This document shows positions 16,340-62,115 of a stretch of DNA of 64,000 nucleotides, piece by piece. The first letter of the stretch is position 1. The number at the start of each line of letters is the position of its first letter. The notes beneath the pieces are model-generated. The model was not told where the DNA came from, made no database searches, and was given only the letters and a program-made list of their open reading frames with translations. The stretch is from NCBI RefSeq assembly GCF_040183065.1, contig NW_027185502.1, positions 633,501 through 697,500 of the forward strand, written 5' to 3'. The position numbers and the translations under genes were made by a program. The stretch comes from Periplaneta americana. Taxonomy: Eukaryota > Arthropoda > Insecta > Blattodea > Blattidae.

Positions 16340-18220
16340 AACGTGAAGGCATTTCATCAAGTCTTCTAAAGCCTTGTTTTTTAAGATCTTGATTTCAAGT
16401 GTTGATGGTTCACCTTGGAAACAAACACCCGCAACAAGAATTTGTGGTATTCATTTTATTGGGAACGAGATCAGGAAACCCCCAAAACTAGCTTACCATT
16501 CCCAGTATTTTACTAAAAGATTACAAGTAAAAGACTGCCTCATCTCAACTAGCTCCCCAAAGATACGAAAGAGACGCAAAAATAAGAAGAAAAGATGAAA
16601 ATTTAAGTTTTATGGAAGGCGAATGTTCAACAAGTGTTATTTATAAAAATTAAGTAGCCATACAGGCAGAAGTAAATGAAACTATTCTTAGTAATTTTGT
16701 TTTTTCTTTCACAACTGAATTGTGTGAATTTTCTACTCAAGTGTTTATTCCATTATATGCCGAACTGAAGTCACATAAGAAATGTTATGAGAAGAGTTCA
16801 GGAACAGATGATAATATATGTTTAATGAAATGCAAGGTTTCCGAGATTATTCTACAATAAAATATGAGCGGGAACTACCAGACTTAATGGGAGTGGCATT
16901 TGTGGTTTTGAATATATTGTTAAAATTGCTGCCAATTGAAACACAATCATACCCATAGAATCATAATAAGAAATATTTCCAATTCTATCATTTAACCCAA
17001 AAATAGCTACCATAGATAGTCGAAACGCCCCAAGATGTAGACCATACATATTCTTTTCTTTCCATTTTTATTAGTGAATTTCACATCAAAAGCTTTCGAA
17101 AAATTCTGTCCAAGAGTAAGATTAGTAAAGAAAATCGTCTACTCATATTTTTAAATTAAAATGAAAACTGGATTGTCATATTCTGCTATGAGGGTGATGT
17201 TCGGAGTTAATCGTACATTTATAATTATGATATATTTTTACCGCCACTTTAATGTTGTTGACATCCACAATACTTACTTACAAATGACTTTTAAGGAACC
17301 CGAAGGTTCATTGCCGCCCTCACATAAGCCTGCCATTGGTCCCTATCCTGTGCAAGATTAATCCAGTCTCTATCATCATACCCCACCTCCCTCAAATCCA
17401 TTTTAATATTATCCTCCCATCTACGTCTCGGCCTCCCTAAAGGTCTTTTTCCCTCCGGTCTCCCAACTAACACCTATATGCATTTCTGGATTCGCCCATA
17501 CGTGCTACATGCCCTGACACTCGGGAGGAAATTAAACGCAGAATAAATATGGGAAATGCGTGTTATTATTCGGTTGAGAAGCTCTTATCATCCAGTCTGC
17601 TGTCCAAAAATCTGAAAGTTAGAATTTATAAAACAGTTATATTACTGGTTCTTCTGTATGATTGTGAAACTTGGACTCTCACTCTGAGAGAGGAACATAG
17701 GTTAAGGGTGTTTGAGAATAAGGTACTTAGGAAAATATTTGGGGCTAAGTGGGATGAAGTTACAGGAGAATGGAGAAAGTTACACAACACAGAACTGCAC
17801 GCATTGTATTCTTCACCTGACATCCACAATGGTTACTGTAATTTTGGGTTTTGGCCTAGCAGAGAAAGTATTCAGGAAACAATGCCTGCAATATTGAAAA
17901 ATGTAGAGTGACAATTAATTGTTCAAAAGTGGAACAGCCACCCAATGTGGATCAGATGGTGGCCTTCAAATCTAAATGCTACTGTGGCAGATCGAGTGAC
18001 ACATTCATGACAACTGATTGCGGATTATTGACGTTATTAGAAGGTGGTGATGAAGTCAGGTTTTCCCGGAATAATAACAAACCTCTCCGATAAAGGGATC
18101 ATGTTGTTACTCCACCGTATCTGCATGATGATAAATTAACAGCTGAAGAAGTCGAAACTACTTACAGCGTTGCCAGTGTTCGAATTCATGTTGAAAGGTG
18201 CATTCAGCGAATTAAAATAT
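16340..18220 (+). pseudogene. THAP-domain PIF/ISL2EU-like transposase, broken and interrupted
   Basis: Four consecutive plus-strand pieces of one transposase can be read. First, a THAP zinc-finger C-terminal half at 16380-16520 (TPATRICGIHFIG, the C..HF signature). Second, ELPDLMGVAFVVLNILLKLL near 16870-16930, the helix before the HTH. Third, KMKTGLSYSAMRVMFGVNRT at 17155-17215, the HTH region (MKLR.GLSY..IA..FGVHRTT). Fourth, on the far side of a LINE insertion, YCGRSSDTFMTTDCGLLTLL at 17980-18040, then LTAEEVETTYSVASVRIHVE (18138-18195) followed by RCIQRIK. The last is the C-terminal Glu region of a DDE_Tnp_4 domain. The Asp of the expected 'aDrGF' motif is missing after GDEV. Multiple stops and frameshifts make it inactive. 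Domain order is seen; the superfamily name is an inference. Confidence 0.72.
17272..17817 (-). mobile_element. LINE copy with twin-primed 5' inversion
   Basis: Minus strand 17520-17272 encodes the C-terminal end of the same LINE ORF2 as at 19482-20847 ([20 protein letters not shown] ... RAAMNLRVP stop), with a GTAA-like tail at the left. From 17522 to 17817 the plus strand encodes an upstream segment of the same protein ([20 protein letters not shown] ... [14 protein letters not shown]). The two pieces lie head to head and are nearly consecutive in the protein. This is the pattern expected from twin priming. The insertion is flanked by TGACATCCACAAT at 17259-17271 and 17818-17830; TGACAT may be shared with the LINE end. 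It disrupts the transposase above. Confidence 0.85.
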
Positions 18221-18963: not shown

Positions 18964-19481
18964 AAATTTATCTGGATATAATTAATGTCTTTTCTCCAAT
19001 TTAACAGATATTCATGAAACTTTGTATAGTAGTTACACGTAGTATATTTGTTTGTATATAAACTTTGATAACGTTTTTATAAGGGAAACTACCCCTTATA
19101 GGGTGCATCTAGAGAAAATTAATAACTTTTCTCCTATGTAACAGATTTTCATAAAAATTTTGTGTAATAGTTTCGAGTAGTATATTTATTTTGTATACAA
19201 GCTCTGATTACGTTGGTATAAGGGGAAGTACTCCTTACAGAGGGTGTATTTAGAGAAAAAATTAATAACTTTTCTCCTATGTAACAGATTTTCATAAAAA
19301 CTTTGTGTAATAGTTTCGAGTAGTATATTTGTTTTGTATACAAACTCTGATTACGTTGGTACAAGGGGAAGTACTCCTTACAGAGGGTGTATTTAGAGAA
19401 AAAATTAATAATTTTTCTCCTATTTAACAGATTTTCATAAATCTTTGTGCAATAGTTTCGGGTAGTATATTTGTTTTATAT
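18964..19481. repeat. ~140-bp tandem satellite, left part
   Basis: Four diverged units, each beginning with a version of AATAACTTTTCTCCTATGTA then ACAGATTTTCATAAA (about 18982, 19119, 19264, 19399). Each also contains a block like AGTATATTTGTTTTGTATAC followed by a CTACCCCTTATAGGG-type block. Units are separated by 135-145 bp. The array is interrupted by a LINE and resumes at 20848. Confidence 0.85.
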
Positions 19482-20847
19482 TCGAAAAGAAGAAGAAGAA
19501 GAAGACTAACTGTAGTAACTTTCGAGGAATATCACTTTTGTTGCTGTCGTACAAAATTTTGTCGAATATTCTTTTGAGAAGATAAACTCCATATGTAGAT
19601 GAAATTATTGGGGATCATCAGTGTGGTTTCAGGCGTAATAGATCAACTATTGACCAGATATTTTGTATTCGACAGATAATGGAGAAAAAATGGGAGTATA
19701 AGGGTACAGTGCATCAGTTATTCATAGATTTCAAAAAGGCATATGACTCGGTTAAGAGAGAAGTTTTATATAATATTCTTATTGAATTTGGTATTCCCAA
19801 GAAACTTATTCGATTAATTAAAATGTGTCTCAGTGAAACTTATAGCAGAGTTCATATAGGTCAGTTTCTGTCAGATGCGTTTCCAATTCACTGTGGGCTA
19901 AAACAAGGAGATGCACTATTACTTTACTTTTTAACTTTGCTCTAGAGTATGCCATTAGGAAAGTCCAGGATAACAGAGAGGGTTTGGAATTGAATGGGTT
20001 ACATCAGCTGCTTATCTATGCGGATGACGTGAATATGTTAGGAGAAAATCCACAAACGATTAGGGAAAACACGGAAATTTTACTTGAAGCAAGAAAAGAG
20101 ATAGGTTTGGAAGTAAATCCCGAAAAGACAAAGTATGTGATTATGTCTCGTGACGAGAATATTGTACGAAATGGAAATATACAAATTGGAAATTTATCTT
20201 TTGCAGAGGTGGAGAAGTTCAAATATCTTGGCGCAACAGTAACAAATATAAATTATACTCAGGAGGAAATTAAACACAGAATAAATATGGGAAACGGCTG
20301 TTATTATTCGGTTAAGAAGCTCTTATCATCCAGTCTGCTGTCAAAAAATCTGAAAGTTAGAATTTATAAAACAGTTATATTACCGGTTGTTCTTTATGGT
20401 TGTGAAATGTGGACTCTCACTTTGAGAGAGGAATATAGGTTAAGGGTATTTGAGAATAAGGTGCTTAGGAAAATATTTGGGGCTAAGAGGGATGAAGTTA
20501 CAGGAGAATGGGGAAAATTACACAACACAGAACTGCACGCATTGTATTCTTCACGTGACATAATTAAGAACATTAAATCCAGACGTTTGAGATGGGCAGG
20601 GTATGTAGCACGTATGGGCGAATCCAGAAATGCATATAGAGTGTTAGTTGGGAGGCCGGAGGGGAAAAGACCTTTAGGGAGACCGAGACGTAGATGGGAG
20701 GATAATATTAAAATGGATTTGAGGGAGGTGGGATATGATGATAGAGAATGGATTAATCTTGCTCAGGATAGGGACCAATGGCGGGCTTATGTGAGGGTGG
20801 CAATGAACCTCCGGGTTCCTTAAAAGCCAGTAAGTAGTAAGTAAGTG
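19482..20847 (+). mobile_element. 5'-truncated LINE (RT + C-terminus) with 17-bp target duplication
   Basis: Flanked by GTATATTTGTTTTATAT at 19465-19481 and 20848-20864. From 19500 the plus strand reads RT motifs: NFRGISLL, GDHQCGFRRNRSTIDQIFCI, a FIDFKKAYDSV motif (Asp of RT motif A) and CGLKQGDAL. In the second frame (19984-20823) comes [13 protein letters not shown], the YADD catalytic motif. A one-base deletion near 19918 (CTATTAC where CTATCACC is expected) shifts the frame, and a stop sits near 19580, so it is inactive. The C-terminus [20 protein letters not shown] ... MNLRVP ends at 20823. A GTAA-rich tail (AAGCCAGTAAGTAGTAAGTA) follows. Clade RTE/Jockey-like is not decided. Confidence 0.92.
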
Positions 20848-21565
20848 GTATATTTGTTTTATATACAAACTGAATACGTTGGTAGATGGGAAACTACACC
20901 TTAAGGGGGGTATTTAGAGAAAAATTAATAACTTTTCTTCTATCTAACAGATTTTCATGAAAAGTTGTACAGTAGTTATAGGTTGTATATTGGTTTTGTA
21001 TACAAACTCCGATTACGCTTGTATAAAGGAAACTACCCTTTATAGGGACTGAATTTATAGAAAAATTAACAACTACTCGTATTATTAATTTTTCTCCAAT
21101 TTAACAGATTTTCATGAAACTTTGTACAGTAGTTACAGGTAGTATATTTGTTTTGTACAGCAACTCTTGTTACGTTTGAGGGAAACTACCCCTTATAAGG
21201 GGCACATTTAGAGGAAATTAATAACGTTTCTTCTATCTAACAGATTTTCGTTAAAATTTACACAGTATATTTGTTTTATATACAAACTCTAACTATACTT
21301 GTGTAAAAGAAACTGTCTCATTGTAGGGGTGAATTTAGATAAAATTAGTACCTTTTCTCATACGAAACAGATTTTCATCAAAATTGTACGTTAGTTAAGG
21401 GTAACATATTTGTTTTGTATACAAGCTCTAATTATATTTGTGTAAAGCAAACTACCCCATTATAGGGGTGAAATTAGATAAATTTAATAAGTTTCCTTCT
21501 ATCTATCAGATTATGATCAAACTTTGTACAGTAGTTAGAGGTAAAATATTTATTTTGTAACAAGA
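20848..21565. repeat. ~140-bp tandem satellite, right part
   Basis: At least five further units of the same satellite (starts near 20924, 21084, 21218, 21345, 21484), more diverged from one another than those on the left. Small open frames crossing units are by-products. Confidence 0.82.
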
Positions 21566-23179: not shown

Positions 23180-24095
23180 CAGAACAAAAATCCACGAGCT
23201 ACTGATATAGCCAAACATCCTACACACGCGATATGACGAAATTAACACAGGAGTAAAACAGGATTCCGGCCTTTCCCACCTTCTGTTTATAATGCACAAG
23301 AACGAAATTCTTCAGGAATGGAGACAAATGCGACATGATCAGTTGCAGATAGACAGAAATTTAAAAATAGGTTCATTGATATTTGCAGTATTTGCAGATG
23401 ACCTGGTTTCAATAGCACCTACAGAAAATGATTTACAGTATTCAGTACATAATTTAAATATAATTGCAAAACAATATAACATGGAAATAAATACAGAAGA
23501 AAAGCAACAAAGTTATGGCCTTCTGGGAAAAATATTCTCTTCCACGTAAAATACGTTTAGAAGGCAAAATTTTAGAAAGACTTAATGATTTTACATATCT
23601 TGGCTATAAATTAATATTTGATATTGATTTGAATATGACCAAAATTGTAAAATGCTCCAAAACTATGGGAATAACCAATAGGGTAATGAAACCTTCCATG
23701 GCACAGGAAATCACTAGAATACGCCTTTAATGAACCTTGTGCTCTGATATAGCAGTGAGGCATGGGTATTAAGGCTGGTGGCTGAAAGCAGAATAACAGT
23801 AACTAAATGAGGCTTATGCGAAGAATAGCCTGATATACAAAATGGAACCATAAACGCAACGACGAAGTATGGAATAACTCGGTCTGGAATCAGTATTCCA
23901 TTTCATACAGAAATATCAGAGCTGGATGAGCCATTTGCGATGAATGAGATCCACAGAATGCGAAAAGCTATACTTCACTATCAGTCCCATAGGAAGAGAT
24001 CTCTGAGACGTCCCAAAGAGTTTAAGAGGAAATTCCTCTTTATTATGAGATCGTAATAGGCCATATGGCGTAATAGGCTAAATGTTTGGATGAAT

Positions 24096-24125
<30 letters not shown>
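23180..24125 (+). pseudogene. LINE fragment with (GAT)n tail, copy 1
   Basis: The plus strand reads SLIFAVFADDLVSIAPTEND (RT FADDLV motif, with an extra AVF insertion), INTEEKQQSYG, then in another frame LERLNDFTYLGYKL and IVKCSKTMGITNRVMKPSMA. Further decayed pieces of the C-terminus (KRSLRRPKEF-like) follow. It ends in a (GAT)n microsatellite at 24100-24125, a common LINE tail. Frameshifts and stops disable it. A second copy lies at 25670-26210 in the same position relative to the exon family, so the pair was duplicated together. Confidence 0.82.
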
Positions 24126-24127
<2 letters not shown>

Positions 24128-24610
24128 GTCAGGTAGTAGTGGTGTTTGGGAATGTTTCTTGTTGTACAGTAACTAAATGGAACAAAAGCATAGTATAGTT
24201 GTTTTGATTTTTCCACACCCACATTGCATATGCAAGGAATTTCCCGCCATCGGGTACAGTTAAGAGAAAAAAATATTATGTGATTACAAATAATTTAGAA
24301 TGTTTTCACAAAATATTCTAATTTGGGGCTTCATGCCACAAAAATCTAAAAATACGTTACATTGCATGCTCATTAGTGTATTATATACAAGATCGCCTGA
24401 AATATGCAAAAATAGTATGTACAATTAATTTGGAATATTCGTCATTACAATCGTTCAAAATGTGTATAAATTAATTTTGTATTACTTCCAAATGAACGGC
24501 AAAAATATGCAGTTGCATACGAATCCTTGTCCTATTAATAAGCCATTCATTGAAAGGCAGTGACTACATTGACACATGCTTAACGATCAAGTTTATTTTG
24601 CTTCTTGCAG
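24126..24610. repeat. Conserved upstream block of exon unit 1
   Basis: Closely similar to 26210-26664. Shared stretches include GGTGTTTGGGAATG, GTTGTTTTGATTTTTCCACA, CCCACATTGCATAT and AAGGAATTTCCCGCCA. It ends in a shared polypyrimidine acceptor. Conservation of this probable intron is from duplication and may include splicing signals. Confidence 0.6.
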
Positions 24611-24811
24611 AGATGAAGGAAGCCACGGACGACTATCGAAATATCCCCATCCTGAAGGCCATACCATCCATGCCAAATCTCATGGCAGCTCGCATGCCAG
24701 CACCATCATTGGAACACTTACCAGCAGAAGAAGAAGCTGAGGAAGGAATAACGAAGACTGGCTGCGGGTCCTTTTTAAGAAATGTATTTCGTAGACGTCG
24801 TCTTTTTAGGC
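24611..24811 (+). CDS. Symmetric (phase 1-1) exon, small copy 1
   Basis: Preceded by acceptor TTTTGCTTCTTGCAG and followed by donor GTAAGT (24812-24817). The exon is 201 bp. It starts with two bases of a split codon and ends with one, so both junctions are phase 1 and skipping or duplicating it keeps the frame. Translation: MKEATDDYRNIPILKAIPSM, PNLMAARMPAPSLEHLPAEE, EAEEGITKTGCGSFLRNVFR, RRRLFR. The order is a variable start, a Met-Pro-Ala seed, an acidic cluster (EEEAEE), one Cys and an Arg-rich tail. I do not recognise the protein. Reading through the donor gives a stop two codons later. The evidence for exon status is the shared phase and splice sites in three copies. Outer exons were not identified. 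Confidence 0.62.
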
Positions 24812-25034
24812 GTAAGTAAATATAAATTTTATGTCTCAGAGCCATTTTCAGATTGATTGCCCTCGGCGTCTTCCTTTGTTTCCCTCACCACTTGTTCACA
24901 GTGAAGCAATTCTGTTACAGTAATAGTACTTACATTATGTGCACTCCTTAAAGTCCTATTAATAAGCCATTCATTGAAAGGCAGTGAATACATTGACACA
25001 TGCTTAACGATCAAGTTTATTTTGCTTCTTGCAG

Positions 25035-25235
25035 AGGTGAAGGAAGCCACGGATGACTATCGAAATATCCCCATCCTGAAGGCCACACCATCCATGCCAA
25101 ATCTCATGGCAGCTCGCATGCCAGCACCATCATTGGAACACTTACCAGCAGAAGAAGAAGCTGAGGAAGGAATAACGAAGACTGGCTGCTGGTCCATTTT
25201 AAGAAGTGTATTTCGTAGACGTCGTCTTTTTAGGC
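25035..25235 (+). CDS. Symmetric (phase 1-1) exon, small copy 2
   Basis: Same 201-bp length, acceptor, donor (GTAAGT at 25236) and phase as copy 1. Differences are few: VKEATDD for MKEATDD, KATPSM for KAIPSM, and GCWSILRSVF for GCGSFLRNVF. The Cys, acidic cluster and Arg-rich end (RRRRLFR) are unchanged. The frame remains open, consistent with constraint or recent origin. It could be an alternative (mutually exclusive or tandem) exon of the same gene. Function unknown. Confidence 0.62.
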
Positions 25236-25376
25236 GTAAGTAAATATAAATTTTATGTCTCAGAGCCATTTTCAGATTGATTGCCCTCGGCGTCTTCCTT
25301 TGTTTCCCTCACCACTTGTTCACAGTGAAGCAATTCTGTTACAGTAATAGTACTTACATTATGTGCACTCCTTAAA

Positions 25377-25669
25377 GTTACCAACAATTAAAACTTTCAT
25401 TTTGTTTGGCGCTCTTTTTCTTTATGTGCTAAAAATATATCTGAATCTCACACTCGGTCCCTTCGTTTCATTCAATGTGGCGACAATTAAGCACGTGTGC
25501 TTGTAATTTTCATTTAATTCTTTCGTTTCCGAACAAGTACATCATGCTTAGAAATATTTGGAGCTGTATATTGTGAATTAATCATATTTGTATTGCTAAG
25601 GAACAGGAAAGGGATGTTCTGTCTTCTGTTCTTATTTTTTTCGCACTTTCGTCGCAACAAATCTCTCGT
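25377..25669. other. Downstream flank shared with the large exon; no gene
   Basis: 25370-25460 is homologous to 31800-31890 (CATTTTGTTTGGCG, TTTTTCTTTATGTGCTAAAA). 25475-25530 resembles 37120-37180 (CAATGTGGCGACAATTAAGC). No gene seen. Confidence 0.6.
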
Positions 25670-26210
25670 AAAATGTTTAGAAGGCAAAATTTTATAAAGA
25701 ATTAATGAGTTTACATATCTTGGTTAGAAATTAATATTTGATTTGAATATGAGCAAAATTGTAAAATACTCCAAAATTATGGGAATAATCAACAGGATAA
25801 TGCAACCTTCCATTTTACGCCTTTAATAAACCTTGTACACTGTTATGGTAGTGAGGCTTGAATATTAAGGCGGGTGGATGAAAGCAGAATAACAATAACG
25901 GAATTAGATTTATACGAAAAACAGCTTGCTGTACAAAATGGAACCACAAACACAACGACGAAGTATGAAAGAGCTTGATCTGGAATCAGTATTCCATTTC
26001 ATACAGAAATATCAACAATTGGAAGAGCCATTTGCGACGTATGAGATCCCACAAAATCCCGAAAGCTATACTTCACTACAAGTCTATGGGAAGAGATCTC
26101 TGGGACGACCCAAAAAGAGGGGGGAGGAATTCATCTTTATTGTGAGATCGTAATAGGCCACATGGCCTAATAGGCTATTTGTATAGCTGCTGATGATGAT
26201 GATTAATTCA
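25670..26210 (+). pseudogene. LINE fragment, copy 2
   Basis: Diverged copy of 23550-24125. It reads YGKRSLGRPKKRG and LDLESVFHFIQKYQQLEEPF in 25926-26153, with the same GAGATCGTAATAGGCCA end and a short GATGAT tail. More deleted than copy 1. Its position before the large exon mirrors copy 1 before the small exons. Confidence 0.8.
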
Positions 26211-26664
26211 GGTAGGTAGAGGTGTTTGGGAATGCTTCTTGTTGTGCAGTAACAAAAGCATAGTGTGGTTGTTTTGATTTTTCCACACCCACATTGCATA
26301 TTCAAGGAATTTCCCGCCACCGAGTACAGTTAAGATAAAAATATTATGTGATAAACAATTCAGAATAATTTTTTTACAAAATATGCGAATTTGGTGCTTT
26401 GTGCCACAAAATACTAAAAGTATTGCTTGCTCATTAGTCTATCATGTACAAGAACGCCTGAAATATGCAAAAATATGCACAATTAATTTGGAATATTCGT
26501 CATTACAGTAGTTCAAAATGTGTATAAAATGATTTTGTATGACTTCCAAATGGACAGTAAAACTATGTAATTGCATACGAATCGTGGCCGTATTAATGTT
26601 ATTCCTGAAAGCCAGTGAATGCAATGACACATGCTTAACGATCAAGTTTCTTTTTATGTTGCAG
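26211..26664. repeat. Conserved upstream block of the large-exon unit
   Basis: Homologue of 24150-24610 ending in acceptor CTTTTTATGTTGCAG (AG at 26663-26664). Relative to the small copies there is a one-base indel just before the AG. This shifts any reading frame upstream, while the frame downstream of the AG is preserved. That fits an intron/exon boundary here. Confidence 0.65.
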
Positions 26665-29600
26665 GGTTCTCGAAAGCCAGGCCAACTCCCATACCACCCA
26701 TACCACCTCCCACATCACCCATGCCAGCTCCCATATCAGATCCCATTGCCAGCTCCCATTCCAGATGTGCCATTGCTCCCATGCGAGATCCCATTCCAGA
26801 TTCCTTGCCAGCTTCCATACCACATCCCATATTAGCTGCCATGCAAGCTCCCACTGCTAGATCCCATGCTAGTCCCCATGTCACCGATGTTAGTTCGCAT
26901 GACAGCTTCAATGCCAGGTCCCTTACAAGGTCTCATGCGAGCTCCCATGCGAAATCCCTTGCCAGATGCCATGCCAGCACACCTGTGCCAGCTCCCATGT
27001 CAGATTCCTTGCAATCTCCCATGCGAGATCCAATGCAAGCACTTATTTCCGGCTCTCTTGTCAGTGATCCCAAGGTAGATCCCTTATCAGCTCCCACGTC
27101 AGATCCCATACCAGCTCCCATTGCCAGTTCCCATGCCAGCGATCCCCTGGCAGTTCCCATGCCTGATTCCATGCCACGTCCCATTACCAGCTCCCATGCC
27201 AGATATATTGCGAGGACCCATGCTAGATCCCTTGCAAGGTCTCATGCGAGCTCTCATGCCAGCGATTTCATGTCAGACACCATGCCAGCTCCCATGCCAG
27301 ACCCCCTGCCAGGTTCCATGCCAGCCCCCCTGCAAGTTGACATTCAAATTGTCATGCTATATGCCAGGATAAGTCCCTGTATAGGTGCCTTAGATGTAAT
27401 GCTAGGTCCCATGTCAGCTCCCATTCCAGCTGACATACCACCTGCCATGCTAACTGCCATGCCAGCTGACATGCCACCTGCCATACTAGGTGTCATGCTA
27501 GATAACATACCACCAACCATGCGGGATGCCATGCCAGCTGACATACCAGCCGCCGTTCTAGTTAACATGCAAGCCTCGATCCTAACTGCCGTGTCAGCTA
27601 CCATGCCAGCCCACATGCCAGTTCCCATGGCAGATCCCATGCCAGCTTTCATGTCAGATCCCACGCCAGCCCCCATGCCAGCTCCCATGCCGGCCCCCAT
27701 GCCAGCCACCCTGCCAGTTGACATTCAATTTGCCATGCTTCGTGCCAGGATAAGTGTCTGTATAGGTGCCTTAGATGTCATACGAGGTCCCATTCCAGCC
27801 CCCCTGCCACGTCCCATTCCAGCCACTCTGCCACTTGACATTCAATTTCCCATGCTTCGTGCCAGGATAAGTGACTGTATAAGTGCCTTGGGTGTCATGC
27901 GAGGTCCCATGCCAGCCCCCATACCGGATCCCTTAGCAACTCCCATGCAAGCCCACATGCCGGATCCCATGCCAGCCACCATGCCAGCCACCTGCTCCCA
28001 TGGCAGCCACCATGCCAGCCGCCATTCCAGCCCCCATGCCAGCTCCCATGCCAGCTGCAATGCCAGCCCCAATCCCACCGCTATGCCAGCTGCCATGTCA
28101 GCCACCATGCCAGCCCCCATGCCAGCCTCCATGCCAGGCCCCATCCTAACTGCCGTGCGAGCTGCCATGCCTGCTTTCATGGAAACCCCCCTGCCAGGTC
28201 CCATGCCAGCCACTCTGCCAGTTGACATTCAATTTGCCATGCTTCGTGCCAGGATAAGTGTCTGTATAGGTGCCTTAGATGTCATGCAAGGTCCCATGTC
28301 ATCTCCCATGCTAGCCCCCAGGCCGGATCCCTTGGCAGCTCCCATGCCACGCCACATGCCGGATCCCATGCCAGCCCCCGTCCCAGCTGCCATGCCAGCC
28401 GCCAGCTCCCATGGCAGCTATCATGCTAGCTGCCATGCCAACCCTCATTGGAGCCCCCATGCCAGCTCCAATCCCTCCCCCATGCCAGCTGCCATGCTAG
28501 CCCCCATGCCAGTTCCTATGCCAGCCCCCATGCCAGCCCCCCTGCCACGTCCCTTTCCAGCCACTCTGCCACTTGCCATTCAATTTGCCATGCTTCGTGC
28601 CAGGATAAGTGACTGTATAAGTGCCTTAGATGTCATGCGTGGTCCCATTCCAGCCCCCCTGCCACGTCCCATTCCAGCCACTCTGCCATTTGACATTCAA
28701 ATTGCCATGCTTCGTGCCAGGATAAGTGACTGTATAAGTGCCTTAGGTGTCATGGGAGGTCCCATGCCACGCCCCCTGCCAGGTCCCATGCCAGCTATCA
28801 TGCCAGATCCTATGCCAGGTCCCGCGCCAGCCCCTATGCCAGCTCACATACTAGCCCTCCTGACAGGTCCCATGCCAACCCCCATGCCAGCTGTCATGCC
28901 AACTCCCACACCATTCCCCATGCCAGCTCCAACGCCAGACCCCATGCCAGAACCCATGCCTGCCCCCATGCCAGGTCGCACGCGAGACCCCATGACAGCT
29001 CCCATGCGAGCTATCATGCCAGATCCCATGCCTGCCCCCATGCCAGCTCCCACGCCAGCCTCTATGCCAGGCCCCATACCAGCCAATCTGTCACTTGATA
29101 TTCAATTTGCCATGCTTCGTGCCAGGATACGTGCCTGTACAAGTGCCTTAGATGTCTTGCGAGGTCCCAAGCCAGCCCCCCTTACAGCTCCCATGCCAGC
29201 CCCCCTGCCAGCTCCCATGCCAGCCCCAATGGCAGCACCCCTGCCAAGACCCATGCCAGCCCACCTGATAAGTCCCATGCCAGGCACCCTACCAGTTGAC
29301 ATTCAATTTGCCATGCTTCGTGCCAGGATACGTGCATGTATAGGTGCCTTAGATATCATGCTAGGTCCCATATCAGCTCCCATTCCAGCTAACATGCCAG
29401 CCCCCATTCAAGCTCCTATGTCAGGTCCCATGCCAGATAACAAACCACCAGCAAAGCTGGATGCCATGCCAGTTCACATACCAGCTGCCGTTCTAGTTAA
29501 CATGCCAGCCTCGATCCTAGCTGCCGTGCCAGCTTCCACGCCAGGTCCCATGGCAGATCCCATGCTAGCCGCTATGCCAGCTCTCATGCCAGATCCCATG

Positions 29601-31662
29601 CTAGCCACCATGCCAGCTCTCATGCCATATCGCATGCTACCCACCATGCCAGGTCTCATGCCAGATCCCATGCCTGCCCCCATGCCAGCTCCCACGCCAG
29701 CCTCTATGCCATCCCCCATGCCAGCCCCTATGCCAGCCAATCTGCCACTTGACATTCAATTTGCCATGCTTCGTTCCAGGATAAGTGCCTGTATAAGTGC
29801 CTTAGATGTAATGCGAGGTCCCAAGGCAGCCCCCCTTCCAGCTCCCATGCCAGCACCCCTGCCAGCTCCCATGCCAGCCCCCATGGCAACACCCCTGCCA
29901 AGACCCATGCCAGCCCACCTGGTAAGTCCCATGCCAGGCACCCTGCCAGTTGACATTCAATTTGCCATGCTTCGTGCCAGGGTACGTGCATGTAAAGTTG
30001 CCTTAGATATCATGCTAGGTCCCATATCAGCTCCCATTCCAGCTAACATGCCAGCCCCCATTCAAGCTCCTATGTCAGCTCCCATGTCAGATAACATACC
30101 GCCAGCAATGCTGGATGCCATGCCAGCTCCAGCTCACATACCAGCTGCCGTTCTAGTTAACATGCCTGCGTCGATCCTAACTGCCGTGCCAGCTTCCACG
30201 CCAGCTCCCATGCCAGCTCCCATGCCAGCTCCCACATCAGCCCCCATGCCAGCTCCCACGCCAGACCCCATGCCAGTTCTAATACCAGACCCCATGCCAG
30301 TTCCCATACTAGACCCCATGCCAGGTCGCACGCCAGACCTCATGCCAGCCCTCATATCAGTTCCCATGTCAGCTCCCATTGCAGGCCCCCTGCCAGGTCT
30401 CATGTCAGCCCCCCTGCCAATTGACATTCAAATTGTCATGCTTCGTGCGAGTATAAGTGCTTGTATAGCTGCCCTAGATGTCATGCGAGGTCCTATGCTA
30501 GCTCCCCTCCCAGCTCCCATGCCAGACCTTCTGCCAGTTGACATTCTAATTGCCTTGCTTCGTGATAGGGTAACTGCCTGTATAGGTGCCTTAGATGTCA
30601 TGCGAGGTCCCATGCCAGCTCCCATTCCATCCGTCATGCCAGCCCCCATGCCACCCTCCATGCCGGATCCTATGCCAGCTCCCATGCTTGCTCCCATTCC
30701 AACTCCCATGGCATCTCGCATACCAGCCCCCTTGTCAGCTCCTATGCTAGCTGCCATGCCAAGTACCATGCCAGCCTTCAGCTTCCATGCCATCCCCCAT
30801 GCCAGCTCTAATGCCAGCCCCCATGTCAGGTTTCATGCAATCCCCCATCTCACCCCCATGCCAACCCCTATTCCAGCTGTTATACCAGCCCCCATGCCAG
30901 CCCCCATGCTAGCTCCCATTCCAGCCCCCATGCCAGCCCCCACGCCAGCTCCCATGCCAGGCCCAATCTTAGCTGCCGTGCGAGCTGCCATGCCTGCTCT
31001 CATGCCAGCTCCCATGCCAGGCCCAATCCTAGCTGCCGTGCGAGCTGCAATGCCTGCTCTCATGTTACCCCCCACGCCAGCTCCCATGCCAGGCCCAATC
31101 TTAGCTTCTGTGCTAGCTGCCATGCCTGCTCTCATGCCAGCTCCCATGCCAGGCCCGATCCTAGCTGCCGTGCGAGCTGCCATGCCTGCTCTCATGCCAG
31201 CCCCCACGCCACCTTCCATGCCAGGCCCAAACCTACCTGCCGTGCGAGCTGCCATGCCTGCTCTCATGCCAGCCTCCACGCGAGCTCCCATGCCAGGCCC
31301 AATCCTAGCTGCCGTGCGAGCTGCCATGCCTGCTCTCATGTTACCCCCCACGCCAGCTCCCATGCCAGGCCCAATCCTAGCTGCCGTGCGAGCTGCCATG
31401 CCTGCTCTCATGCCAGCCCCCACGCCAGCTCCCATGCCAGGCCCAATCCTAGCTGCCGTGCGAGCTGCCTTGCCTGGTCTCATGCCAGTTCCCATATTAG
31501 CCCCCACACCAGCTGCCATGCCAGGCCCAATCCTAGCTGCCGTGCGAGCTGCCATGCCAGGCCATCTACCAGCAGAAGAAGAAGCTGAGGAAAGAAGAAT
31601 GATGGGTTGCCGCTGGCCCTCTTTAAGAAATGTATTTCGTGGGATTCGTCGTCTGTTTACCC
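26665..31662 (+). CDS. Giant symmetric exon: Met-Pro-Ala repeat protein with 12 Cys modules
   Basis: Exon of 4,998 bp (1,666 codons, divisible by 3), phase 1-1, acceptor AG at 26663-26664 and donor GTAAGT at 31663. The frame is open from 26631 to 31670 with no stop; the other plus frames are repeatedly closed, for example by TAA inside the modules. Content: degenerate MPAP-type tetrapeptide repeats (12-bp DNA unit) interrupted by 12 copies of a ~22-residue module like VDIQFAMLRARISACIGALD, each with one Cys. The core ATG/TTG positions are 27354, 27735, 27852, 28239, 28590, 28707, 29112, 29313, 29766, 29967, 30438 and 30555. From 30950 follow nine copies of PGPILAAVRAAMPALM. The end, HLPAEEEAEERRMMGCRWPS then LRNVFRGIRRLF, matches the small exons. 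No homologue is recognised; it could be a structural, secreted or low-complexity protein. Expression is untested. Confidence 0.62.
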
Positions 31663-31944
31663 GTAAGTAGTTACCAATTTTATGTCTTAAATGGCTATTT
31701 TCAGATAGATCACCCTCTGCTTGTTCCTACTTGTTCCCCTCACCACTTGTTTATAGTTAAGCAATTCTGTTAGAGTAATTTCACATTATGTGCAGTCCTT
31801 AATGTTACCAACTATTAAAACATGCATTTTGTTTGGCGGTCTTTTTCTTTATGTGCTAAAATATGTCTGAATCTCATGCTCCGTCCTTGTTTCCACCCAG
31901 TGCACAGTGATATTAATAATATATCAGGTCTACTAGCTTACCTT
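31663..31944. repeat. Downstream flank of the large exon
   Basis: Diverged homologue of 24812-24952 and 25236-25460 (CCCTCACCACTTGTT, AGCAATTCTGTTA, CATTATGTGCA). The duplicated unit therefore reaches to about 31890. Confidence 0.75.
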
Positions 31945-38427: not shown

Positions 38428-38722
38428 CTAGATTGTTTCGATGTAGTATTTTATTAGGAATAATATTTTTTTTAGTTTATTATTTGTCCTGAAAGTAATA
38501 TTGATTTTTTTCTTTTTCAAAGAAATTACGTAGCTTGTGTGAGATATTACCAAAAAAAGGTCATTGTTTACAGTTTTTTTTTGTCCAATTTGGGTTAATG
38601 TGATACCTATGTTGGATTTAGTTTTAAACTTATTTTTCCATTTGCGGATCCTGTTAACAATAGCTTTTTTGAAAGTCATATTGAGGTTAAGATTTCAGAC
38701 AAGTTTAAAGTATATATGAATT
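38428..38722 (-). pseudogene. Penelope-like element linker fragment
   Basis: The minus frame 38428-38679 reads INITFRTNNKLKKIL, matching the NI.Y.SNNKLNSIM region between RT and GIY-YIG in the copy at 42255-42940. 38665-38706 is nearly identical to 44568-44612. Another PLE fragment follows the trimeric SINE at 39587, so the SINE landed between PLE-derived sequence. Confidence 0.6.
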
Positions 38723-38914
38723 GCAAATCAAGATTTCAGGTATAACTCCCTGTAAAGTTGATTTGAATAATACACGTCACTGTTCGTTAACAGAAAACCA
38801 CAATTTAAGTCACACGGAGTCAGTGTGCACTCGAAGTTGGTTGCTTGACGGTTGTCAGCCCACTTTGAGGTCTGTGGATATAGAGGGAAAAATTGGATCG
38901 GTGTCGGTTAGAGT

Positions 38915-38986
38915 TCCCGGGTAGCTCAGTGGTAGAGCGTTGGTACGTTAAACCAAAGGTCCCGGGTTCGATACCCGGCTCCGGAA
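38915..38986 (+). tRNA. tRNA-Asn(GTT)-like SINE head, unit 1
   Basis: A canonical 72-nt cloverleaf. Acceptor TCCCGGG/CTCCGGA has one mismatch and one G-T; D arm GCTC/GAGC; anticodon stem TTGGT/ACCAA with loop ACGTTAA; T arm CCGGG/CCCGG around TTCGATA. The anticodon reads GTT, but position 33 is C instead of the near-invariant T, so function as a tRNA is doubtful. A and B boxes are intact. Confidence 0.6.
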
Positions 38987-39199
38987 CAATTTTTCCCTCG
39001 AAATTATTCAAATCAACTTTACAGGGAGTTATACCTGAAATCTTGATTTGCATAATACACGTCACTGTTCGTTAACAGAAAACCACAATTTAAGTCACAC
39101 AGAGTCAGTGTGCACTCGAAGTTGGTTGCTTGACGGTTGTCAGCCCACTTTGAGGTCTGTGGATATAGAGGGAAAAATTGGATCGGTGTCGGTTAGAGT

Positions 39200-39271
39200 T
39201 CCCGGGTAGCTCAGTGGTAGAGCGTTGGTACGTTAAACCAAAGGTCCCGGGTTCGATACCCGGCTCCGGAA
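39200..39271 (+). tRNA. tRNA-Asn(GTT)-like SINE head, unit 2
   Basis: Identical in the head to unit 1, including C33. Confidence 0.6.
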
Positions 39272-39484
39272 CAATTTTTCCCTCGAAATTATTCAAATCA
39301 ACTTTACAGGGAGTTCTACCTGAAATCTTGATTTGCATAATACACGTCACTGTTCGTTAACAGAAAACCACAATTTAAGTCACACGGAGTCAGTGTGCAC
39401 TCGAAGTTGGTTGCTTGACGGTTGTCAGCCCACTTTGAGGTCTGTGGATATAGAGGGAAAAATTGGATCGGTGTCGGTTAGAGT

Positions 39485-39556
39485 TCCCGGGTAGCTCAGT
39501 GGTAGAGCGTTGGTACGTTAAACCAAAGGTCCCGGGCTCGATACCCGGCTCCGGAA
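39485..39556 (+). tRNA. tRNA-Asn(GTT)-like SINE head, unit 3
   Basis: As units 1 and 2, except that the T loop starts CTC instead of TTC (T54 to C), weakening the B box. Confidence 0.55.
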
Positions 39557-39586
39557 CAATTTTTCCCTCGAAATTATATATGAATT

Positions 39587-42254: not shown

Positions 42255-42940
42255 TTATTCATTTAGCAATTGTATGTTTTGATTATAATGCCTGGCTATA
42301 AAATATTCCTCAGCTGTATTAATTAAATATGGATTATTCACTGTTTTTAAGATTTGCAATGTGTTGTGAATACTATTAAGTTCATGACCTGTGTTAATTA
42401 AGTAAGTGGCAAATTTTGATTTATTTCTATTGTGAATGAAATCGGATTCATGTTCCTTGTACCTAGCATGAAAATTCCTTTTTGTTTGGCCAATGTATTT
42501 CATATTGCAGTTAGTAAAATTTAATTTATAAACTCCACTATGTAAATGTTTGTTAATTTTCCCGATTTTATTGGGCATTATACTGTTTAATTTATTGTTA
42601 CTTTTATAAGTAATGTTTATATTTTCTTTCTTGAAAAGGCAGATAGTTGATTATTAATTTCCTCCATGTAGGTTATAGAGTTCCAGATTTTGACTTTTTT
42701 GGATTCTGTACGTTGTAAGGTGATGGGTGTGTTGTAAGGTGATGGGTGCCTTATTTTTTAATTTTCTAATTCTGTTTTGGATGAAGTTCTGAATCTTTTT
42801 TTATTAAAACCATTCTCAATAGCTAATTGTATTATGTATTTGTATTTTGTTAAGTAGGCTTGGTTATTAAGAGGTGTGTTTATTAAATGATCGACTAAAA
42901 ACCTGTATTTACAAATTTTGTGGGAATAAGGATTTTTATT
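42255..42940 (-). pseudogene. Penelope-like element: linker and GIY-YIG endonuclease
   Basis: The minus strand from 42940 reads KYRFLVDHLINTPLNN, YIIQLAIENGFNKKRFRTSS, then YKSNNKLNSIMPNKIGKINK and HSGVYKLNFTNCNMKYIGQT followed by KRNFHARYKEHE. The last is the GIY-YIG nuclease (GVY ... YIG, catalytic Arg in RNFHARYKEH) that PLEs carry after the RT. The C-terminal part with NTAEEYFIARHY provides the metal-binding Glu region. A stop and frame changes lie between linker and nuclease. PLEs use RT plus GIY-YIG for target-primed insertion. Confidence 0.85.
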
Positions 42941-46030: not shown

Positions 46031-46985
46031 GAACTTTGATTGAAATTTCTGGTAACTTTAATTGTTTGTTTTATTCTCACACAAAAGAATTAATATCGTT
46101 ATATCTTCGGAACTATTTGATGCTACATGCATTCATGCATTATATTTGAAACACTCATTCTTAGGGTATTATGAAACTTTTCTGTGTATCAGAGATTTGT
46201 TATTTTGTTGCATTTAAAAAATATCTCTAAAATTTATTCTTAAGATGTAGCCTATGCTTTATTTGAACATTGTGAAAACGAATATCAAAATTATGCTACA
46301 ACCATTTTACAGAACGTGCTTTTAGGAGTAAAAAGACAAAGAGGTTTTGAATTTATTTTAAAAAATGGCTGAGATATATTCACTGTTGTGAACTACAGTG
46401 TACTGGTACTTTTTCTCCCCAAGATTTCTGTCCCAATTTTTTTTTACTAATCTCAAATTTAAGTTGTTGCAGCAATGATATTTCTACATAATGAAAAAAA
46501 AAAAAAAAAAAGGAAAATTACGATGAAATAGGAAAAAATTCAAATTATACAACCACCTCCCTTTAAAAATAAGATTTGCATGTATCGGAAATAGTCTATG
46601 CAGGTCACTGACAGCTTGTGCATGCCGTGTGTATGAGTGGGGGAAGTATGTATCAGTTTGTAGAGATTATAAAGAAATTCCATTCCATAAGTGAATTAAA
46701 GCATTAAATATTTAGGCCAGTTTAACTGATTCTCTGAGAATATCAATTTCATTCTGGAGGGAGATAGAGATGAGAGTCACTAAAAAAAAAAAAGTGGAAA
46801 TTAAAAAAATATGTTATTAAATACACAGTTGATGAATAGCTGTGTAAATTTTCTCTGGCGTTGCAGCACACTTAAACTTTAACATGGGTACAGGAAAATG
46901 TATTATTGTAATAAAAATTATTTTATTTTTATTTTTGGAAATTGAAAAGGGTGAACTATCTGATTGTGGCTCCTAAATGTATAGG
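46031..46985. other. No gene recognised
   Basis: AT-rich with an A-run at 46494-46510; nothing supported. Confidence 0.5.
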
Positions 46986-47399
46986 AGTAGCAGCAGCAGG
47001 AGGAAGAGCAGCAGCAGCAGCAGGAGCAAGAGCAGCAGCAGCAGCAGCAGGAGCAAGAGCAGCAGCAGCAGGAGCAAGAGCAGCAGCAGCAGCAGGAGCA
47101 AGAGCAGCAGCAGCAGCAGGAGCAAGAGCAGCAGCAGCAGCAGGAGCAAGAGCAGCAGCAGCAGGAGCAGTAGCAGCAGCAGCAGCAGCAGCAGAAGCAA
47201 TAGGAGCAGGAGAAGCAGCAGCAGAAGCAGCATCAGAAGTAGGAGGAGTAGCAGCAGCAGGAGCAGCATTAGCAGGAGCAGGACCAGGAGCAGCAGTAGT
47301 AACAGGAGCAGGAGCAGCAGTAGCAGCAGCAGCAGGAGCAGGAGCAGCAGTAGTAGCAGGAGCAGCAGCAGCAGTAGCAGTAGCAGCAGGAGCAGGAGC

Positions 47400-47431
<32 letters not shown>

Positions 47432-47895
47432 GAGCAGCAGCAGCAGGAGCAGGAGTAGCAGGAGCATTAGGAGCAGCAGTAACAGCAGTAGCAGCAGCAG
47501 CAGGAGCAGGAGCAGGAGAAGCAGCAGCAGCAGGAGCAATAGCAGCAGTAGCAACAGCAGCAGGAGAACTAGCAACAGCAGGAGCAGTAGCAGCTATAGG
47601 AGCAGTAGCAACAGCAGCAGGAGCAGCAGGAGCAGCAGCAGCAGCAGCAGCAGGAGCAGCAGCAGCAGGAGCAGGAGCAGGAGCAGGAGCAGCAGCAGTA
47701 GCAGCAGCAGCAGCAGGAGCAGCAGCAGCAGCAGCAGCAAGAGCAGGAGCAAGAGCAGCAGCAGTAGCAGGAGCAGCAGCAGTAGGAGCAGCAGCAGCAG
47801 CAGCAGGAGCAGGAGCAGGAGCAGTAGCAGTAGCAGGAGCAGCAGCAGGAGCAGCAGCAGGAGCAGCAGCAGCAGTATGAGCAGCAGCATCATCA
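46986..47895. repeat. ~0.9-kb imperfect (GCA/GGA/GTA)n trinucleotide repeat
   Basis: Almost every triplet is GCA, with scattered GGA, GTA, AGA and ACA, ending in CAT repeats at 47888-47903. Because the period is 3, the plus strand is open as Ala/Gly (46942-47880) and as Ser/Arg (46977-47954), and the minus strand as poly-Leu. All arise from the repeat. There is no start context, splice site or non-repetitive domain, so I do not call a gene. CAG/CTG-type repeats form hairpins and are length-unstable. Confidence 0.9.
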
Positions 47896-49691: not shown

Positions 49692-52600
49692 AATGGTCCA
49701 CTGTATGTTCTCTCAGTCCTCTTTCTATTCTCTCCGTCCACTCTATGACCTCTCTGTCCACCTATGTCCCCTCTGTACACTCTGTGTCCTCTCAGTCCAC
49801 TTTCTGCCATCTCTGTCCACTATCTCATCTCAGTACACTCTGTGTCCTCTCTGCCACTTTTTGTCCTCTCAGTCCACTATAGTTCCTCTCAGTCCATTCT
49901 CTATTCTCTCAGTCCACTCTATGTCCTCTCTGTCCACTCTGTGTCCTCTCAGTACACTCTTTGTCTTCTCAGTCCACTTTCTCTCCTCTCGGTCCACTCT
50001 ATCTCGTATGTGTACACTCAGAGTCCTCACAGTCCACTTTCTGTCCTCTCAGTCCGCTCTATCTCCTCTCAGTCGTTATCTCAGTCCAATCTAAATATTG
50101 TCATTCCAAACTGAGTCCTCTCAGTCCACACTATATCTTCTGAGTCCAGTCTATGTACTCTCAGTACTGTCTGTGATCTCTCAGTCCACTTTCTTTCCTC
50201 TCAGCCCACTCTATGTTCTCTCAGTTCAATCTATGTTCTCTCAGTACACTCTGTCTACTCTCAGTCCACTTTGTGTCCTCTCAGTCCACTCTATCTCCTC
50301 TCAGTCCAACCTACGTCCTCTCTGTACACTCTGTGTCCTCTCAGTCCACTTAATGTCTTCTCAGTCCACTCTATCTCCTCTGAGTCAATTCTAAATTCTC
50401 TGATTAAACTCTGTGTCCTATCAGTCCACTTACTCTATTCTCAGTCCACTCTATCTCCTATCAGTCCATCATATGTCCTCTCATTACACACTGTATACTC
50501 TCAGTCCACCTTATGTCTTCTGAGTCCACTCTACATCATCTCAGTCCACTCTATCTTCTCTCAGTCCACTCTATATGTTCTCGGTCCAATGTATGTCCTC
50601 TCAGTCCACTCTATATCTTCTGAGTCCAGTCTATGTACTCTCAGGGCTCTCTGTGTCCTCTCAGTCCACTTTCCGTCCTCTCAGTCCACTCTATGATGTA
50701 TCAGTCCACTCTATGTCCTCTCAGTACACTCTGGGTCCTCTCAGTCTACTCCCTGTGTTCTCAGTCCAAACTATATCCTCTCGGTCCATTCTACGTTCTC
50801 TCAGTACACTCTGTGTCCTTTCAGTACACTCTGTGTCCTCTCAGTCCACTTTCTGTCCTCTTAGCCCACCCTATCTCCCCTCAGTCCACTCAATGTTCTC
50901 TCAGCACACTCTGTATCCTCTCAGTCCACCTTCTGTACTCTCAGTCGACTCTATGTCCTCTCAGTCCACTCTATGTCCTCTCAGTCCACTCAATGTTCTC
51001 TCAGTCCACTTTATGTCCTCTCAGTCCACTCTATATCTTCTCAGTCCTCTCTATGTCCTCTCAGTACTCTCTGTGTCCTCTCTGTCCACTTTCTGTCCTC
51101 TGAATCCACTGTATGTCCTTTCAGTCCAATTTCTATTCTCTCTGCCAAATCTATGTTCTCTCAGACCACTCTTCATCTTCCCAGTCCATTTATGTCCTCT
51201 CAGTCCACACTATATCTTCTCAGTCCTATCTATGTACTCTCAGTACTTTCTGTGTCCTCTCAGTCCACTCTATCTCCTCTCAGCCCAGTCTATGTTATCT
51301 CAGTCCAATCTAAATATTATCAGTTCACTCTGAGTCCTCTCTGTCCAATCTATATCTTTTCAGTCCAGTCTATGTACTCTCAGTACTCTCTGTCATCTCT
51401 CAGTCCACTTTCTTTCCTCTCAGCCCACTGTATGTTCTCTCAATTCACTGTATGTTCTCTCAGTACACTCTGTCTACTCTCAGTCCACTTTTGTCCTCTC
51501 AGTCCACTCTATCTCCTCTCTGTCCAACCTACGTCCTCTCAGTACACTCTGTGTCCTTTCAGTCCACTTAATGTGCTCTCAGTCCACTCTGTCTCCTCTC
51601 AGTCCACTCAATGTCCTCACAGTACACTCTCTATCCTCTCAGTCCACCTTCTGTCCTCTCAATCCACTCTATGTCCTTTCAGTCCACTCTACATTCTCTC
51701 AGTCCACTCTGTGTTCTCTCAGTCCACTCTATATCTTCTCAGTCCACATTATGTCCTCTCAGTCCACTTTCTACTCTCTCAGTCCACTCTGTGAACTCTC
51801 AGACCACTCTATGTCCTCTCAGTACGCTGTGTGTCCTCTCAGTTCAATTTATGTTCTCTCAGGCCACTCTATCTCCTCTGAGTCCACTCTATCTCCTCAC
51901 AGTACACTCTGTGTCCTCTCAGTCCACTTTTTGTCCTCTCAGTCCACTGTATGTCCTCTCAGTCCACTTTCTGTTCTCTCTGTCTACTCTATGTCCTCTC
52001 AGTACACTCTGTGTCCTTTCAGCCCACTTTCTCTCCTATCAGTCCACATTATCTCCTCTCAGTCTATCCTACGTCCTCTCAGTACACTCTGTGTCCTCTC
52101 AGTCCACTTTCTGTCCTCTCAGTCCAGTCTATGTTCTCTCTGTCTACTCTATGTCCTCTCAGTACACTCTTTTTGTCCTCTCAGTCCACCTTCTGTCCTC
52201 TCAATCCACTCTATGTCCTTTCAGTCCACTCTACATACTCTCAGTCCACTCTGTGTTCTCTCTTTCCACTCTATATCTTCTCAGTCCACTTTATGTCCCC
52301 TCGGTCCACTCTATTTCTTCTCAGACCACTGTATGTCATCTCAGTACCCTCTGTGTCCTCTCGGTCCACTTTCTGTCGTCTTGGTCCACTGTCCAATTTC
52401 AATTCTCTCAGTCAACACTATGTTCTCTCTGTCCACTCTACATAATCTCAGTCCAATTTATGTCCTCTCAGTCCACTCTATATCTTCTCAATCCACTCTA
52501 TGTCCTCTCAGTACACTCTGTGCTCTCTAAGTCCACTTTTTTCCTCTCTGTCCACTGTATGTTCTCTCAGTGCTCTTTGTACTCTCTCAGTCCACTCTGT

Positions 52601-61600: not shown

Positions 61601-62115
61601 TCCTGTCAGTCCACTCTATGTCCTCTTAGTCCACTCTTTGTCCTCTCAGTTCACTCTATGTCTACTCAGTCCACTCTATGTCCTCTCAGTCAACTCTATC
61701 TCCTCTCAGTCTACTCTATATCTTCTCAGTTCACTCTATGTCCTCTCGGTACACTCTGTGTTCTCTCGGTGCACTCTATATGTTTTCAGTCCAATCTATG
61801 TCCTTTCAGTCCACTCTCTCTCCTCTCAGTCTACTCTATATCTTCTCATTACACTCCATGTACTCTCAATGCACTCTATATGTTTTCAGTCCAATCTATG
61901 TACTTTCACTCTACTCTATCTCCTCTCAGTCTACTCTATATCTTCTCATTACACTCTATGTGTTCTCTGTGCACTCTATATGTTTTCAGCCCAATCTATG
62001 TCCTTTCAGTCCACTCTATCTCCTCTCAGTCTACTCTATATCTTCCCAGTGCGCTCTATGTGCTCTCAGTCCAGTCTCCGTCTTGTCAGTCCTTTCCCTG
62101 TCCTGTCATTGGATG
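49692..62115. repeat. 12.4-kb array of a ~20-bp minisatellite
   Basis: About 600 degenerate units of TCCTCTCAGTCCACTCTATG. Variation is mostly at the last 4-6 bases (CTATGT, CTGTGT, TTCTGT, CTATATCT, CTACAT). The order of variants is repeated over kilobases: blocks recur at offsets of about 5.41-5.48 kb (50642 with 56049, 51541 with 56967, 52979 with 58461) and about 4.2-4.3 kb (49866 with 54169). A 20-bp period rotates through all three frames and the unit has no stop on this strand, so open frames of up to 670 codons appear in every plus frame. They are not genes. Confidence 0.97.

Follow-up and report, generated by a model that had tools for sequence, protein, structure and literature searches.

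In the mammalian REST genes, such as the semenogelins and the rodent Svs/Svp genes, conservation of the main exon lies largely at its splice sites and exon ends, and this exon grows by taxon-specific slippage and tandem-repeat duplication while the noncoding parts are well conserved (PMC7556508). In insects, PMC11241164 gives the fibroin heavy chain of Lepidoptera and Trichoptera a short first exon, a giant repetitive last exon and a non-repetitive C-terminal domain, and PMC5666370 describes pilosulin/melittin-type precursors in which a Pro/Ala-periodic acidic spacer precedes a basic helical peptide, with a one-Cys pilosulin-type form that may dimerise. Here we analysed a stretch of 64,000 nucleotides from the cockroach Periplaneta americana (contig NW_027185502.1, positions 633,501 to 697,500 of the forward strand; hereafter the window, numbered from its first letter), which carries three homologous exon-like units, one of them enlarged about 25-fold, from about 67 to about 1,670 amino acids. 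Our preferred reading, which we hold at about one chance in two, is that each of the three units represents a copy of the last coding exon in an uncharacterised, fast-evolving P. americana gene, and that one copy expanded while its frame and tail were kept.

The resemblance to REST genes appears to be a likeness in anatomy, not membership. It consists of paralogous main coding exons of unequal size at one locus, a feature described in PMC7556508, and of a cockroach exon whose ends are conserved, two tail motifs included, around a variable middle with repeats. However, the cockroach locus shows a main-exon candidate only, whereas the REST plan, as outlined there, has a signal-peptide exon, a main exon and a 3' untranslated exon; the REST sequences are described as Gln/Lys-rich and the cockroach one is Pro/Ala/Met-rich; and duplication is seen here for the exon, which does not imply the whole gene. 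The fibroin heavy chain shares with our proposal the giant repetitive last exon behind a short first one, but it is high in Ala, Gly and Ser in moths and butterflies, the cockroach window has no recognised first exon or N-terminal domain, and the part of PMC11241164 at hand mentions no short sister copies. As for the ant peptide, which PMC5666370 compares with bee melittin, the spacer of the large cockroach copy differs in reaching about 1,600 residues. The likeness to these two systems seems to be one of plan, with membership in neither established.

The three units and the blocks shared at their ends are as follows:

24611..24816, + strand: exon copy 1 (small), coding to its last codon, with stop TAA at 24817-24819 and a possible weak donor GTAAGT at 24812
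25035..25240, + strand: exon copy 2 (small), with stop TAA at 25241-25243 and a possible donor GTAAGT at 25236
26665..31667, + strand: exon copy 3 (large), 1,667 residues from 26667 to stop TAG at 31668-31670, with a possible donor at 31663
24566..24610, + strand: branch-point-like CTTAAC, pyrimidine tract and AG of copy 1, with homologues at 24990-25034 and 26620-26664
31563..31670, + strand: C-terminal block of copy 3, HLPAEEEAEERRMMGCRWPSLRNVFRGIRRLFTRK followed by the stop

The exon starts after AG at 24611, 25035 and 26665 and the lengths of 201, 201 and 4,998 bp to GTAAGT, as given by the original prediction, hold. The EEEAEE, single Cys and Arg-rich end that it placed in the C-terminal block are seen in all three copies, within a common tail of the form HLPAEEEAEE...Cys...LRNVFR..RRLF.RK, and tblastn within the window links the block of copy 3 to copy 1 at 7e-7 and to copy 2 at 6e-8. 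The reading frame starts with two bases after the AG (phase 1) in each unit, and copy 1 has 68 codons counted from the ATG at 24613, or 66 codons and one base if the donor is used. The acceptor, claimed earlier to be a real splice site, does look real: the 25 bases TGACACATGCTTAACGATCAAGTTT over the branch-point and tract are identical in 3/3 copies, and the alignment bears out the one-base gap noticed in the copy 3 polypyrimidine tract. Of the six frames of the copy 1 exon, one is open; from 5,000 dinucleotide shuffles, P is 0.036 for this particular frame and 0.099 when all three forward frames are allowed.

The enlargement of copy 3 is made of a short repeat, to which these features belong:

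24670..24705, + strand: three tandem 12-mers in copy 1, ATGCCAAATCTC ATGGCAGCTCGC ATGCCAGCACCA, matching ATGCCAGCTCCC at 9, 10 and 10 of 12 bases
26677..31566, + strand: degenerate 12-bp array of copy 3, unit ATGCCAGCTCCC (Met-Pro-Ala-Pro), found by Tandem Repeats Finder
27321..30626, + strand: span, within the array, of 12 copies of a 35-codon element with consensus PATLPVDIQFAMLRARISACIGALDVMRGPMPAPI

Tandem Repeats Finder counted about 404 copies of the unit with 60% matches over 26718-31560. The three-unit run of the small exon agrees with the array unit at 29/36 bases, while the maximum in 5,000 shuffles of the small exon was 22 and the best three-unit run elsewhere (window 1-24500) scored 21 on the + strand and 19 on the - strand. 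These 12-mers are, judging by their sequence, likely the seed of the copy 3 array. The simplest history would be that the seed grew through slippage and unequal exchange, and the alternative is that the small copies shrank. The 35-codon elements start at 27321, 27702, 27819, 28206, 28557, 28674, 29079, 29280, 29733, 29934, 30405 and 30522, and all 12 copies (VDIQFAMLRARISACIGALDVMRGP) have one Cys; a 13th regex match at 27462 was excluded as not homologous by eye. Derivation of this element from the small exon was considered and rejected, since the alignment is confined to its VMRGPMPAP end (protein P 0.18); at the nucleotide level its score against the small exon was higher than in any of 1,000 codon shuffles, but that score comes from the stretch with the shared 12-mers. 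AlphaFold2 gave two helices for a 100-residue piece holding two of the elements, at low confidence (mean predicted local distance difference test, pLDDT, of 59.5).

The case for translation rests on how the array keeps its frame. The exon frame of the array is free of stops, whereas 1,000 column shuffles averaged 6.1 and never reached zero, and the other two forward frames of the array have 74 and 37. When the phases of the repeat are labelled MPAP, ASSH and CQLP, the exon frame makes eight excursions from the MPAP phase (leaving out a ninth segment of one codon at the 3' edge of the array, 31563), all of which enter the ASSH phase and all of which return, so that the CQLP phase, with stops at 71/1,599 codons, is never entered. 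ASSH-phase stops number 0/161 in the exon frame and 29/1,443 outside it (one-sided Fisher 0.045); these phase-wise counts omit codons spanning an indel.

Several observations weigh against this interpretation. MPAP-phase codons outside the exon frame are also stop-free (0/163), so the open frame is owed mostly to the repeat itself, and the bare length of the open frame was set aside as coding evidence for the same reason. The column-shuffle P cannot be taken at face value, as it is inflated by related repeats, and in the same test the other frames deviate by nearly 3 standard deviations too. The Fisher value is too strong because the 12 related elements contribute 17/29 of the off-frame ASSH-phase stops, 11 of these at a single position. 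Grouped by eye, the excursions reduce to about 2-3 kinds of entry and 4 kinds of exit, which amounts to about 6-7 independent coin flips and a P of roughly 0.01, not one in hundreds of thousands. The three codon positions vary alike across the 12 elements (Fitch 31/25/25), and the proportions of nonsynonymous (pN) and synonymous (pS) differences among them are 0.23 and 0.20, in a set including the 13th match. At the boundary between array and tail, just before the C-terminal block, the alignment has a gap of 8 bases, which is not divisible by 3. In that block, a 34-codon comparison gives pN 0.17-0.18 and pS 0.19-0.20, near the noncoding divergence of about 0.15, and the block is still stop-free 47% of the time after 19 random substitutions. 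No homologue was found in the protein, Pfam, structure or viral-contig searches, and no upstream exon was recognised, the scan being limited to the window and downstream exons not being searched for.

Much of this would also be expected if the units were non-functional, that is, the duplicated 3' end of a dead gene, or an exon-like fragment, joined to an ordinary 12-bp minisatellite whose triplets ATG, CCA, GCT and CCC are none of them one step from a stop. The near equality of pN and pS close to the flank divergence, the MPAP phase without stops off the exon frame and the missing homologue or domain all suit it, as does our judgement that two other large arrays in the window are probably non-coding. 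Against such an origin speak frame excursions that always compensate and avoid the stop-rich phase, an in-frame indel in the tail, the 25 identical acceptor bases and the ASSH-phase stop deficit (inflated by related repeats, as said); we regard it as unlikely, if a serious contender. On balance, coding is moderately supported, and from sequence alone we put the chance that the putative exons are translated at about three in four.

Positive selection on the whole C-terminal block was rejected, with pN and pS by NG86 about equal. HLPAEEEAEE shows synonymous change only (2 synonymous, 0 nonsynonymous). When 25139-25240 is compared with 31563-31667, the ten codons between the tail motifs hold 11 nonsynonymous and 0 synonymous changes, and the ten before them 0 and 2; this ten-codon stretch is possibly a hypervariable patch, one that was picked post hoc and hinges on gap placement. 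AlphaFold2 placed a helix over tail residues 51-67 of the small exon in a low-confidence model (mean pLDDT 63).

A special case of our reading is that the units encode secreted peptide precursors, in which an acidic Pro/Ala-rich pro-region ending in EEEAEE, enlarged in copy 3, would be followed by a cationic, one-Cys helical mature peptide, as in hymenopteran pilosulin/melittin precursors. The small copies have a net charge of -5 as far as EEEAEE and +9 beyond it, the last 15 residues of the copy 3 tail have a higher helical moment than shuffles (P 0.02), the predicted tail helix is compatible with it, and copies 1 and 2 differ by 5 nonsynonymous and 1 synonymous changes, a ratio not significant alone. 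However, the tails of copies 1 and 2 are no more amphipathic than shuffles (P 0.21-0.29), a pro-region of roughly 1,600 residues is without precedent known to us, and no signal-peptide exon was found in a window scan that had no positive control. We consider a precursor role improbable.

The duplications that produced the three units can be followed in the flanks, for which these features are needed:

24529..25378, + strand: 424-bp tandem duplication yielding copies 1 and 2
23545..25460, + strand: unit A of an older duplication, its 3' edge ~70 bp beyond an ATTAAA
25667..31886, + strand: unit B of the older duplication, carrying the expanded exon
25387..25392, + strand: this ATTAAA, a candidate poly(A) signal after copy 2, with a homologue at 31814 after copy 3

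Copies 1 and 2 are 98.4% identical, with 7 differences over 426 aligned bases, and as products of one 424-bp tandem duplication they are not independent evidence. Six of the seven differences, those already given by class, fall inside the exon (Fisher 0.064 against flank). The flanks of the older duplication are 85.2% identical on both sides (848/995 aligned bases upstream, 184/216 downstream), whereas the C-terminal block of copies 2 and 3 is 81.0% identical (85/105 aligned bases), so the exon is conserved no better than its noncoding flanks. Of the 18 flank indels, 5 are multiples of 3, and the C-terminal block from HLP on has a single indel, of 3 bp. The upstream edge of unit A falls within what we take to be the 3' part of a long interspersed nuclear element (LINE), with an (ATG)n tract at 24096-24126. 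LINE 3' transduction was rejected as the source of the older pair: the units adjoin and unit B lacks an obvious tail, which makes tandem duplication the simpler origin.

The original prediction took the units for internal symmetric exons. Of the properties it listed, phase 1 at the start stands, while lengths divisible by 3 and a matching end phase depend on GTAAGT being the true donor. On the exon side of this motif, position -1 is C and positions -2 and -3 are G or C (GGC|GTAAGT, CCC|GTAAGT), and with an approximate donor matrix 2.6% of the GTs in the window score as well as or better than those of copies 1 and 2, and 1.3% than that of copy 3. An in-frame stop lies two codons past GTAAGT in 3/3 copies (CGT AAG followed by TAA, TAA and TAG); because the copies are homologous, these stops are one observation, not three. 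Given a weak donor with an in-frame stop two codons on, the units are explained at least equally well as last exons or as duplicated 3' ends, and internal symmetric exons are not favoured over these.

Cassette exons with phase 1 at both ends, spliced at GTAAGT and perhaps alternative or mutually exclusive, would supply a 67- or 1,666-residue module. The motif was kept in all three copies while bases on either side changed, it is rare in the background (0.25 per kb), and the frame-preserving lengths agree with such splicing. Nevertheless, the C at -1 weakens every donor, by the same approximate matrix, and the in-frame stop survives a TAA/TAG change, as would suit a true C-terminus, although a stop so early after a phase-1 GTAAGT is not rare by chance. 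This arrangement is unlikely in our estimate, somewhat more so than a non-functional locus. A broader proposal, that one gene has three interchangeable exon versions whose choice would shift a module 25-fold, from about 67 to about 1,670 residues, through minisatellite growth in one duplicate under selection on frame and tail only, seems to us decidedly unlikely.

By judgement rather than test, we favour a last exon ending in RK and the stop over an internal exon by roughly two to one, on the sequence of these ends. In copies 2 and 3 the candidate poly(A) signal ATTAAA lies 144 nt after the stop, but with a background density of 2.5 A[AT]TAAA motifs per kb it is weak evidence, and no candidate signal was found between copies 1 and 2. 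A scan of 1-26600 for a signal-peptide-type first exon, the one without a positive control mentioned above, gave 0 matches on the + and - strands at both settings, and the frames before the four strong donors (score 7.5 or more), read by eye, contained no convincing exon.

Searches for relatives agree with the earlier remark that no family could be recognised. None of the three exons matched a Pfam-A family at E 1 or better, and solved structures, searched with the small exon only, gave no relative. The small exon (68 residues) found nothing in a protein database in which proteins of about 37-119 residues sharing three 5-residue words were reachable, and by this length rule a small exon joined to a much longer protein would escape the search. 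For the large exon, 7,983 best-sharing candidates were scored and one match was obtained, of 985 residues, at 1.7e-3 and 1% coverage, which we take as chance. As a control, the LINE open reading frame (ORF) at 19846-20820 had a best match 91% identical over 89% to a predicted Periplaneta americana protein, and among the best 120 of its 7,411 matches all named ones came from this species, one of the 120 being nameless; this agrees with P. americana or a very close relative as the source of the window. The database therefore holds predicted P. americana proteins, and the absence of a small-exon match suits an uncharacterised gene. None of 127 pattern matches in viral contigs was a relative, and none of the top-listed papers from open-literature searches, which did not use the sequence, describes the exon in its title or the opening of its abstract.

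Taken as last exons of one gene, the units could work as follows. An upstream exon, not recognised here, would splice in phase 1 into one of the three duplicated last exons, each of which would end at the short cationic tail with its stop; GTAAGT over Arg-Lys-stop would be fortuitous or an occasional donor. The copy 3 spacer may have expanded by slippage and unequal exchange from the three seed 12-mers, while selection on the array would keep the reading frame alone, and not the residues, so that the tail stays translated. Frame-only selection of this kind predicts an open array with compensated shifts, codon positions that vary alike, shared ends and an exon diverging no slower than its flanks, and these features are what the sequence shows. 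The functional part would be the common tail, and the middle a disordered spacer. We infer that the protein evolves fast and combines a disordered middle, rich in Pro, Ala and Met, with a functional, Cys-bearing, Arg-rich helical tail.

The window is rich in other repeats. At 49696-62092 lies a 12.4-kb array of a 20-bp unit, GTCCACTCTATGTCCTCTCA (622 copies, 73% matches), strongly C/T-rich on the + strand and with long ORFs in several forward frames; its period is not divisible by 3, which makes it probably non-coding. A 6-bp GC-rich repeat fills about 0.9 kb at 46989-47889, is Ala-rich and has more than one open frame on both strands, and the + frame 46915-47877, the sole frame scanned, gave no Pfam match. 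Three tandem 285-bp units at 38722-39577, 95-97% identical by BLAST, each carry a predicted tRNA-Asn(gtt) gene. LINE pieces at 18970-21564 are flanked by blocks of a tandem repeat with a period of 139-157 bp, and 17275-17823 is repeated at 20257-20836 with one half inverted. A 131-aa ORF on the - strand (42255-42650) presumably resembles the GIY-YIG end of a Penelope-like element, and Pfam gave no match for it.

If the units are not translated, the locus is a warning that a stop-poor 12-bp repeat can yield a 1,600-codon open frame. Genes of this kind may escape annotation: the search that scored the 7,983 best candidates from a database with predicted P. americana proteins did not return the large frame. 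If the units are translated, seed repeats, unexpanded sisters and the expanded copy would stand side by side as a before-and-after of a short exon becoming giant, and the alignable noncoding flanks would serve as a neutral ruler with which frame-only selection in arrays becomes testable.

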